DNA of 5,724 nt, taken from positions 41,353 through 47,076 of the forward strand of contig MGQK01000065.1 of assembly GCA_001797815.1 (NCBI GenBank), given 5' to 3'. Source of the stretch: Deltaproteobacteria bacterium RBG_13_61_14. Its GTDB lineage: Bacteria > RBG-13-61-14. Below are positions 1 to 3,026 of the stretch, in pieces (positions within the stretch are counted from its first letter, which is position 1; each line of letters starts with the position of its first letter). The position numbers and the translations under genes are program-made. The notes beneath the pieces were generated by a model that had not been told where the DNA came from, made no database searches, and saw only the letters and a list, made by a program, of their open reading frames with translations.

Positions 1-1235
1 CTCAGGTCGGTCTCCGGGTAAAAGTAGGTGAAGCGGTCGCTGTCGGCCTGGACCTGCATGCCCGCCTGCAAAGCCTGCTCCCAGAGCTCGGTCCCTTCAA
101 AGGGCGTGACGAAAAAGAAGTTGACCGAGTGCAGCTTTGAATCAAGCGCGAAATTCAACGTCGCTTGGATTTCCTCCCGCGTCTCCGTCGGGAAACCCAC
201 CATGAAGAACCCGTCCACCATCATCCCCAGCCGGTCGGTCTCCGCGATCATCTCCTTGACCCGGTCCAGCTTCAGGTTCTTCTTCATATATTTCTGGATA
301 CGGGACGAGCCCGACTCCACCGCGTAGGTGATCCGGTAAGTCCCGGCTTCTTTCAGCTTGCGCAGAAGCTCGGGCGTCATGATGTCGCCGCGCACCCCGT
401 TGGGGAAGTTGATCGCGATCTTCAAGCCCTCCTCCACGATCCGGTCGCAGATGGCCATCGCCCGCTTTTGGTCGAAGTTGAAGCAGTCGTCAATGAAGTG
501 GATCTCGCGCACGCCGTGCTGGTGGTAGAGGATTTTCAACTCCTCGATCACGTTCGGGACGCTCCGGGCCCGGAACTTCTGGCCGAAGAGGCGGTGGCAA
601 TAAGTGCAGTTGAAGGGACAGGCGCGGCTGGAGAAAACCGACATGTAAGGGCGAAAGCGGTAGGCGGTGCCGAAGCGTGGGATATCCCAATAGCGTTCCA
701 TGCGCACCAGGTCCCAGGCCGGGAAGGGCAGGGAGTCGAGATCCGGGTGGAAAGCTCGGGGCGGGGTCAGATAGGGTTGACCGTTCCGACGGAAGCCCAC
801 GCCCGGGATTTCCGGTTGCCGCTCGCCGGCGAGCAGTCGGGGCACCAGCTCGGCAAAGGTTCCCTCGCCCTCGTGGCGCACAATCAGGTCCACTTCCGGC
901 AGGGCGAGCACGCGCAGGGGCATGGTGGTCGCATGCGGCCCGCCCGCCACAATAGGCAGGTCCGGCCGGAACGCCTTCACCGCCTTGGCCAGGGCCGCCA
1001 TTTCCTCGGACTCGTAGGTCATGGCGCTGATGCCGAGGATGTCCGGTTGATAGTCCCGGATTTCCCGGACCAGATCGGCGATGGTCAAATTGTCAGGGAG
1101 CATATCGCGTAATTTGAGCTCGACCCCCGGCATTTTCCGCCGCAGGTAGGCGGCGAGCATCATGATCCCGAGCGGCTGTCCGAATTTTTGGCGGGCGGTG
1201 CGGTGCCCGACCTTGACTAAAAAGATGCGGGGCAT
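1..1235 (-). CDS. B12-binding-domain radical SAM protein (3' end beyond window)
   Basis: The minus-strand frame is open for 411 codons from ATG 1235-1233 to the window edge, so the C-terminus is missing. Residues about 1-140 look like the Rossmann-like cobalamin-binding fold of this family, with a conserved GGPH at 98-101 and HEGEGTF at 121-127. Residues about 195-400 are the radical SAM barrel, with the cluster motif CPFNCTYC (C206, C210, C213; the CxxxCxxC that binds the [4Fe-4S] cluster and SAM). Later barrel motifs include FIDDCF (247-252), VESGS (306-310) and GFFMVGFPTET (342-352). Known for the family: reductive cleavage of SAM to a 5'-deoxyadenosyl radical for methylation, cyclisation or other C-C chemistry. 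The substrate cannot be read from the sequence. The cobalamin base-off motif DxHxxG is not visible (LRDMLPDN at 42-49 has no His), so B12 may be bound base-off without His or not at all. An in-frame TAA lies four codons upstream, so ATG 1235 is the first ATG in this frame. The 12-bp gap to the Hsp70 gene implies co-transcription. Confidence 0.93.
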   Translation of the reverse strand, partial: MPRIFLVKVGHRTARQKFGQPLGIMMLAAYLRRKMPGVELKLRDMLPDNLTIADLVREIRDYQPDILGISAMTYESEEMAALAKAVKAFRPDLPIVAGGPHATTMPLRVLALPEVDLIVRHEGEGTFAELVPRLLAGERQPEIPGVGFRRNGQPYLTPPRAFHPDLDSLPFPAWDLVRMERYWDIPRFGTAYRFRPYMSVFSSRACPFNCTYCHRLFGQKFRARSVPNVIEELKILYHQHGVREIHFIDDCFNFDQKRAMAICDRIVEEGLKIAINFPNGVRGDIMTPELLRKLKEAGTYRITYAVESGSSRIQKYMKKNLKLDRVKEMIAETDRLGMMVDGFFMVGFPTETREEIQATLNFALDSKLHSVNFFFVTPFEGTELWEQALQAGMQVQADSDRFTYFYPETDL

Positions 1236-1247
1236 GAACGGAAAAAC

Positions 1248-3026
1248 TTATCCTCGTTGAAACAGACGTTTGAGCCGGCTCACCAAACCGGCCAGCGCGG
1301 ATTCCTTGGCCGGACGGACGGGCTTGGGCGGCTGGGGTTGGGGCGGGGGCGGTGTTTTCTCCGGCGCCTTGGCGGTTTCCGGACCGGGCGGCGGAGCCGT
1401 GCCGGCCTTGAGTTTCACTTCCCGCGTGACCGTGGCGGAGATCACGGTCTCGCCGGCTTTCTTCTCCATCGGCTTCTTGAGCGCGATCAGGTCCGGATGG
1501 ATGGGCTTATGGCCGGCGGCCTGGATCTGGAGCACCGATTCCCGGGCGGCGCCGGTGTCCGGGTCGCGGGCGGCGACGGTGAGGATGCCCTCATGGTTGA
1601 GGGTAAACACCGTTTCCACCTTGGCCTGGCCCTTGGCCGCCGGATGGATCCCGGAAAAGGTGAAGTCGCCGATGATCTCGTTTTCCGCGGCCGTGGCTTT
1701 GTCCCCTTGCAGGATGGTGAGCTTGAGGCTCTGCTGCTGGTCCTTGGAAGTGGTGAAGACCTTCAGCTTCTGGTTGGGGTAGGGCGAGTTGCGGGGGAAG
1801 ATCGGGACCATCTTGCCGCCGGCGGCCTTGATCCCGATGGTCATGGGCAGCACGTCGAGCAATTGGATCTCGCCCTCGCCCTTGCGCGCCAGGCTGTCGG
1901 CCATGATCGCCGCGCCCAGGGCCACCGCCTCGTCGGGGTGGATGCCCTTGCTGGGGGCCTTGCCGAAAAAGTCGGCCACCTTTCTCGCCACCAGGGGGAT
2001 GCGGGTGCTGCCGCCGACCAGGAGCACCGCGTCCAGGTCCTCGGATTTGAGCTTGGCGTCCGCCATCACCTGCCGGCAGGCGACCAGGGTGTTCCCGATC
2101 AAGTCCTCGCACAACTGCTCGAATTCTTCCCGCTTGACCGTGTAATCAATATTCAGCGCGCCGGAGGGGCCCATGGTGATAAAGGGGATATGGACTCGCG
2201 TTTCCGGCCGGGAGGACAGGTCAATCTTGGCCTGCTCGCAGGCGTCCTTGATCCGCTGGTGGCAGATCGGATCCTTGAACAGGTCAATGCCGTGCTCTTT
2301 CTGGAAGCGATGGATCATAAGCTCGGCCAGGCGGTTGTCAAAGTCCACCCCGCCCAGGAAGGTGTCGCCGCCGGTGGCCAGCACCTCGAAGACATTGTCC
2401 CGGACCTCCAGGATGGAGACGTCGAAAGTGCCGCCGCCGAAGTCGTAAACCGCGAGCTTCTGGTGGAGCGCCTTGCCGAAGCCGTAGGCCAAGGCCGCGG
2501 CGGTCGGCTCGTTGATGATCCGGAGCACGTCTATCTGCGCGATCTTGCCCGCGTCGCGCACCGCCTGGCGCTGGCGGTCGTTGAAGTAGGCCGGCACGGT
2601 CACCACCGCCCGGGCCACCTCGCGGCCGAGTGAGTCCTGGGCCAGGTTGCGGACGTGGTCGAGGATGATGGCCGAGATCTCTTCCAGCCCGTAGGGCTCC
2701 TCCCGGATCTTGATCAGCACGTCGGCATGTTCGTCGCTGGTGATCCGGTACTTGAAATGGTCCTGGATTTTCCTTACCACCGGCGACTGGATGTCCCGCC
2801 CGATCAGCCGCTTGACCCCGTAGATGGTGTGGATGGGGTTGATCAGCACCTGCCGCTTGGCCGCCTGGCCCACCAGGCGGTTGCCCTTGTCGTCCACCGC
2901 CACGATCGAAGGGATGGTGTAGCCGCCGCCGGTGTCCGAGATCACCCGCGGCCGGTTGTTCTCGACAATGGCGGCGACCGAGTAAGTGGTGCCCAGGTCA
3001 ATTCCGATGGTAGCCGGTTCCGACAT
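1248..3026 (-). CDS. DnaK/Hsp70-family chaperone lacking the helical lid, with proline-rich tether and amphipathic C-terminal helix
   Basis: The protein has 592 residues; E. coli DnaK has 638. The N-terminal ATPase domain (about 5-385) is complete: GIDLGTTYS at 8-16, YGVKRLIGR with K72 (E. coli K70), VTVPAYFND at 142-150, INEPTAAALAYG with E173 at 171-182, the phosphate loop DFGGGTFD with T200 at 195-202, and the adenosine motif LLVGGSTRIP at 335-344. The interdomain linker LLDVLPMTIGI (389-399) and the beta substrate-binding domain (about 400-505; LQGDKATAAEN at 439-449, GILTVAARD at 480-488) are also present. The roughly 100-residue helical lid is absent. Instead there is a short basic stretch, a Pro/Lys-rich tether (about 545-573) and a cationic amphipathic helix, 575-592, ending LKRLFQRG. 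Known for the family: ATP-driven binding of unfolded segments with J-protein and nucleotide-exchange partners, neither of which is encoded here. I infer an Hsp70 paralogue held at the membrane rather than the housekeeping DnaK. ATG 3026 is the first ATG after an in-frame TGA three codons upstream and has a GGTGAT ribosome binding site. Confidence 0.95.
   Translation of the reverse strand: MSEPATIGIDLGTTYSVAAIVENNRPRVISDTGGGYTIPSIVAVDDKGNRLVGQAAKRQVLINPIHTIYGVKRLIGRDIQSPVVRKIQDHFKYRITSDEHADVLIKIREEPYGLEEISAIILDHVRNLAQDSLGREVARAVVTVPAYFNDRQRQAVRDAGKIAQIDVLRIINEPTAAALAYGFGKALHQKLAVYDFGGGTFDVSILEVRDNVFEVLATGGDTFLGGVDFDNRLAELMIHRFQKEHGIDLFKDPICHQRIKDACEQAKIDLSSRPETRVHIPFITMGPSGALNIDYTVKREEFEQLCEDLIGNTLVACRQVMADAKLKSEDLDAVLLVGGSTRIPLVARKVADFFGKAPSKGIHPDEAVALGAAIMADSLARKGEGEIQLLDVLPMTIGIKAAGGKMVPIFPRNSPYPNQKLKVFTTSKDQQQSLKLTILQGDKATAAENEIIGDFTFSGIHPAAKGQAKVETVFTLNHEGILTVAARDPDTGAARESVLQIQAAGHKPIHPDLIALKKPMEKKAGETVISATVTREVKLKAGTAPPPGPETAKAPEKTPPPPQPQPPKPVRPAKESALAGLVSRLKRLFQRG
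1251..1255 (-). promoter_or_regulatory. Possible ribosome binding site for the radical SAM gene
   Basis: GAGGA on the minus strand lies in the last codons of the Hsp70 gene, 15 nt before ATG 1235. The spacing is longer than ideal, so the site is weak. Translational coupling to the Hsp70 stop 12 bp away is a reasonable alternative way of starting. Confidence 0.35.

Follow-up and report, generated by a model that had tools for sequence, protein, structure and literature searches.

A lidless bacterial Hsp70 with a proline-rich linker and a putative membrane-targeting helix at its C-terminus

The window, i.e., the whole stretch of 5,724 nucleotides analysed here, contains on its minus strand (1248-3026) an open reading frame for an Hsp70 of 592 amino acids, as a previous sequence-only reading had described it, followed by a gene for a radical SAM protein (Table 1). 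The phosphate and adenosine motifs of the nucleotide-binding domain (NBD) and the β substrate-binding domain (β-SBD) assign the protein to the Hsp70 superfamily, and the motifs GIDLGTT (8), NEPTAAAL (172), YDFGGGTFD (194) and GGSTRIP (338) of the NBD are intact. The match to the Pfam family HSP70 (PF00012, 586 bits) covers residues 7-500 only, corresponding to profile positions 2-497 of 599, and the alignment with E. coli DnaK, the closest match in the PDB, spans residues 6-502 and then stops. Over this region the NBD, the interdomain linker (counterpart of LLLDVTP in DnaK) and the β-SBD resemble those of the canonical bacterial Hsp70 (PRK00290, TIGR02350). In contrast to DnaK, the window Hsp70 is devoid of the α-helical lid, falls below both DnaK equivalog cut-offs (NF001413, 609.8 for a cut-off of 648; TIGR02350, 592.8 for 822.55) and possesses a Pro-rich linker ended by an amphipathic helix.

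Table 1. Features of the Hsp70 locus; coordinates refer to the window unless another locus is named.
Feature	Coordinates	Strand	Basis
NBD, residues 1 to ~383	1878..3026	-	Pfam, DnaK alignment, model, motifs
Interdomain linker QLLDVLP (388-394)	1845..1865	-	DnaK alignment
β-SBD (395-500)	1527..1844	-	Pfam, DnaK alignment, ordered in model
Disordered linker (501-574), occupying the place of the α-helical lid	1305..1526	-	Full-length model, composition
ETVISATVTREVKLK (526-540), short stretch within the linker	1407..1451	-	Counterparts in two same-phylum relatives
C-terminal amphipathic helix ALAGLVSRLKRLFQ (577-590), putative membrane-targeting sequence	1257..1298	-	Moment, wheel, tail-only model, conservation
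Gene for a B12-binding radical SAM protein, downstream of the Hsp70 gene at a distance of 12 bp, running off the window	3..1235	-	Profile matches, neighbourhood comparison
B12-radical-SAM gene in the other two genomes of the phylum	L117:7617-9167; L118:2292-3695		

The groove positions of the β-SBD are retained with conservative changes in the DnaK alignment, where M404, A429 and V436, known groove residues of DnaK, align with A402, S427 and L434. This alignment indicates that the protein has the substrate pocket and that its arch is smaller; by homology and from the model, the NBD and the β-SBD would form an ATP-regulated peptide-binding unit. The lid, whose helix bundle had already been noticed to be missing, is absent by three measures, the Pfam match, the PDB match and the order of the model all ending at about residue 500. 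In the full-length AlphaFold model (37 sequences), the NBD and the β-SBD are ordered and residues 501-592 are disordered, with no helix called among them. A Pro/Lys-rich stretch had been proposed at about 545-573, and prolines do account for 14 of the 30 residues 545-574. The stretch ETVISATVTREVKLK of the linker has counterparts in two relatives from the window's phylum (ETVITRTLTRERHIK and TSVTREVHLK) and is, from these three sequences only, a weak candidate for a short linear motif. Another candidate, a 'TVTR' linker motif common to the clades, was dropped as too rare (4/46 linkers).

The last 18 residues (575-592) read ESALAGLVSRLKRLFQRG. On a helical wheel, L578, L581, V582, L585, L588 and F589 deviate from the hydrophobic axis by at most 64 degrees to either side, and R584, K586, R587 and R591 by 96-164 degrees, which agrees with the two faces, hydrophobic and basic, attributed to this segment from the start. 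The best 14-residue helical moment of the tail reaches 0.67 on the Fauchere-Pliska scale (p ~0.003 against shuffles, 0.0025-0.0055 over repeats), a value attained by 0.9% of 221 control C-termini taken from the other genes neighbouring Hsp70s in the loci analysed. By the identical measure, the E. coli proteins MinD and FtsA have moments of 0.52 and 0.75, respectively. With 34 aligned tails as input, a tail-only AlphaFold run predicts a helix at 577-590, with a pLDDT of about 89 over the last ten residues. The high moment and the helix were recovered, apart from the disorder of the full-length model; helices that fold at surfaces often give rise to such a disagreement between models, which in itself should be counted as no evidence for the membrane-helix claim.

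Altogether, the terminal position, the high moment and the basic polar face are those of a MinD/FtsA-type sequence, the helix being uncalled in the full-length model. The window helix resembles the membrane helices of MinD, FtsA and FlhG in its extreme C-terminal position, its length, its amphipathicity and its basic polar face, but the carrier protein is unrelated, the helix stands on a long disordered tether and its membrane binding is putative. KKGFLKRLFGG is indeed the end of E. coli MinD, which shares LKRLF with the window tail, as had been pointed out, so that the term 'MinD-like' holds as a resemblance, for which the FtsA helix is an equally good comparison, and does not hold as a kinship. 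A literal relationship to MinD was rejected, no MinD scoring above cut-off in five genomes and the likeness amounting to a short string. The MinD helix itself is weak and needs two or more copies, whereas a single FlhG helix suffices (PMC6803595).

The combination of a lidless core, a variable linker and a terminal amphipathic helix was found in about 45 related Hsp70s, mostly from uncultured bacteria. The window's phylum is represented by three genomes in the whole-genome collection, as searched at family, order, class and phylum level, and conservation within it rests on the other two (G001 and G002), both of which contain a tailed relative, ending in PGFFKKIFARLFSKGE and PGFFQNILGKIFSKQD, respectively. 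Two genomes of a second phylum, G045 and G190, encode tails that end in KSLWERIKSLFKKS and KKGFFKRILSIFKK. The third set comprises ~40 Hsp70s of deltaproteobacteria and Myxococcota, about 46-54% identical, with linkers of 69-171 residues and a typical end LWxKVxGWFKGLFGG. In G001, two partial genes resembling tailed Hsp70s (L118, L119) lie at contig ends and overlap over ~residues 397-440; they correspond either to a broken gene or to two paralogues.

A joint test of the moment, hydrophobicity and charge of the terminal segment is passed by 39 of the 45 complete tails and by 9 of the 221 control C-termini; when a preceding Pro-rich stretch is added, 36 tails and a single control remain. The six tails that fail are mostly shorter or more hydrophobic (L045, L052, L056, L077, L079). 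In the 15 closest pairs of the third set (clade B), whose β-SBDs are at least 96% identical, linker identity ranges from 0.25 to 0.68 and that of the last 17 residues from 0.59 to 0.94. In other words, the helix is preserved beside a drifting linker, the very pattern anticipated for an alignment of close homologues. Across the tails, the helix differs considerably in sequence and remains amphipathic: column-averaged hydrophobicity (16 residues) has a periodicity of 0.45 at 100 degrees and of only 0.07-0.13 at 160-180 degrees. The net charge of the tails, 0 to +4, would suit anionic lipid.

The counter-observation named beforehand, relatives without the terminal helix, was in part encountered: a clade of Myxococcus, Corallococcus and their relatives contains a lidless Hsp70 of ~506 amino acids with a core ~50-52% identical, which ends at ~501-510 without linker or helix. 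The two other lidless Hsp70s of the source genome (508 and 541 amino acids) have no such tail. Of its three lidded Hsp70s, two likewise lack it; the third (L003) exhibits a high terminal moment, in a part that aligns with the lid region. Since lidless and yet tail-less Hsp70s exist, lid loss and tail are separable traits. For the notion of a lid 'replaced by' a tail, a 'tail added to a lidless Hsp70' is perhaps the better wording. In trees built from the Hsp70 core without the tail, the tailed proteins fall in three sets, A (the window's phylum), B (deltaproteobacteria/Myxococcota) and C (G045/G190), and the tail-less Myxococcus-type clade is closer to B than A is. Grouping A with B is not rejected (p-AU 0.135), whereas a single clade of A, B and C is (p-AU 0.014). 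From these trees, the tail would either have arisen more than once or be old and have been lost in places.

The B12-radical-SAM gene lies immediately downstream of the tailed Hsp70 in each of the three genomes that represent the window's phylum. Its product resembles HpnJ, BchE and others, and scores below every curated cut-off. Because its C-terminus is hydrophobic and basic in G001 and G002 (e.g., LPYLLWLFLKYSLKWT), this protein may also be peripheral to the membrane. In the source genome, stretches of N inside the radical-SAM frame beyond the left edge of the window (L116, about 8301-8800) make that C-terminus unreadable. In clade B, the Hsp70 gene is usually preceded by genes for CNNM/CorC-type membrane proteins or a zinc dehydrogenase and followed by a SpoU methylase gene. 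Comparison of the loci of the clades found no neighbour gene common to all of them, and these differences between neighbourhoods indicate no common client.

Taking these data together, we infer, with a probability of roughly two in three, that the window protein is a reversibly membrane-tethered lidless Hsp70. The chaperone would be held on the inner membrane, on its cytoplasmic side, by a flexible and fast-evolving tether with a C-terminal amphipathic helix that would fold on the lipid surface and insert shallowly. A single copy of the helix may be weak, as in MinD, and binding would then be reversible, the presence of several chaperones on one client favouring it. A fast-on/fast-off Hsp70 would in this manner be concentrated beside membrane-associated clients; in the window's lineage, the product of the adjacent B12-radical-SAM gene could plausibly be such a client or a partner. 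A looser and faster substrate exchange would be expected without a lid. In favour of tethering, the amphipathicity exceeds that of shuffles and of 99% of the controls, and a helix is retained in three sets while the linker diverges. The tailed proteins fall in separate lineages and the other lidless Hsp70s of the genome are tail-less. Against tethering stand the full-length model without a helix, the six failing tails, the tail-less Myxococcaceae relatives and the differing neighbours. In addition, the window helix, with its basic residues around LxxLF, also looks like a good Hsp70-binding peptide.

This last resemblance introduces another explanation, which we consider unlikely: the tail would act as a tethered pseudo-substrate, lying in the open groove of its own or of a neighbouring Hsp70 and causing autoinhibition or oligomerisation, and would thus do part of the lid's job. 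The general peptide preference of Hsp70s fits a core of the RLKRLF type with flanking basic residues, the DnaK alignment leaves a groove to be occupied, and linker length suffices for the tail to get there. Peptides bound in the Hsp70 groove are extended, however, and such a conformation is disfavoured by the helical periodicity of tail hydrophobicity. Moreover, the clade-B tails rely on Trp, Phe and Gly, with few flanking basic residues, and the tail of the full-length model is low-confidence disorder, which gives no support for docking in the groove.

About as improbable is a helix that docks on a protein partner, such as a J-protein, a translocase or the neighbouring enzyme, instead of lipid. 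The B12-radical-SAM gene invariably comes next in the window's phylum, and clade-B tails can carry protein-binding elements: 28 of the 46 linkers, all 28 from clade B, contain the mid-linker motif [LFIM]x[MI]Px[ST]x[LIM] (e.g., PFTMPQSTLA), for a shuffle expectation of 0.03. As this motif is kept in an otherwise drifting linker, it probably serves to dock a protein partner; it is absent from the linker of the window Hsp70. A helix that varies in sequence and retains its amphipathicity is nevertheless expected for lipid rather than for one conserved protein site, and the neighbouring genes differ between clades. That the tail is a functionless by-product, a decayed lid remnant or a read-through extension, is very improbable: the linker is of low complexity and evolves fast, and the Myxococcaceae relatives lack any tail, but an amphipathic helix is found at the C-terminus in three lineages, persists through linker turnover and, according to the pairwise conservation, already seems to be under purifying selection.

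With membrane tethering as the preferred reading of the window protein, the tail is probably the hallmark of membrane-tethered Hsp70s that form a hitherto undescribed group. A broader view is more tentative and, on balance, somewhat doubtful: a recurrent peripheral-membrane class of Hsp70s would have traded the lid for a tethered helix, the membrane surface rather than the lid confining the client near the open groove, and more than one lineage would have acquired or kept this design. Usually, Hsp70s are brought to membranes by J-proteins or receptors. Among membrane-related bacterial Hsp70s already known in other forms, the cyanobacterial DnaK3, likewise a specialised paralogue, was found at the thylakoid membrane by imaging and pull-down (PMC4297356), and MxDnaK2 of Myxococcus owes its preference for membrane clients to its NBD and β-SBD (PMC11019930). 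The Myxococcus/Corallococcus proteins have a related core and no lid, and differ by the lack of linker and helix. The eukaryotic Ssz1 has a reduced C-terminus and is bound to the ribosome through Zuo1, and it is not known to carry a terminal amphipathic helix. Like the window Hsp70, this member of the ribosome-associated complex is a non-canonical Hsp70 (PMC7083937). In the open-licence papers searched, no bacterial Hsp70 was found that combines the missing lid with a membrane-targeting helix at its end. If the reading is true, lidless Hsp70s with their own lipid-binding helix, spread across uncultured phyla, would represent a further mechanism for localising Hsp70 activity, and would offer a natural case in which to study the role of the lid where clients are already confined to a surface.

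Within clade B, the carriers of the mid-linker motif are L032, L035, L037-L048, L050, L051, L053, L054, L056-L059, L061, L079, L080, L090, L096 and L109. Some public records of metagenome-assembled genomes are titled Bifidobacterium breve or Klebsiella pneumoniae (L035, L042, L049, L062, L096, L101); their Hsp70s and gene neighbourhoods are of the deltaproteobacterial type, and the species labels look wrong.
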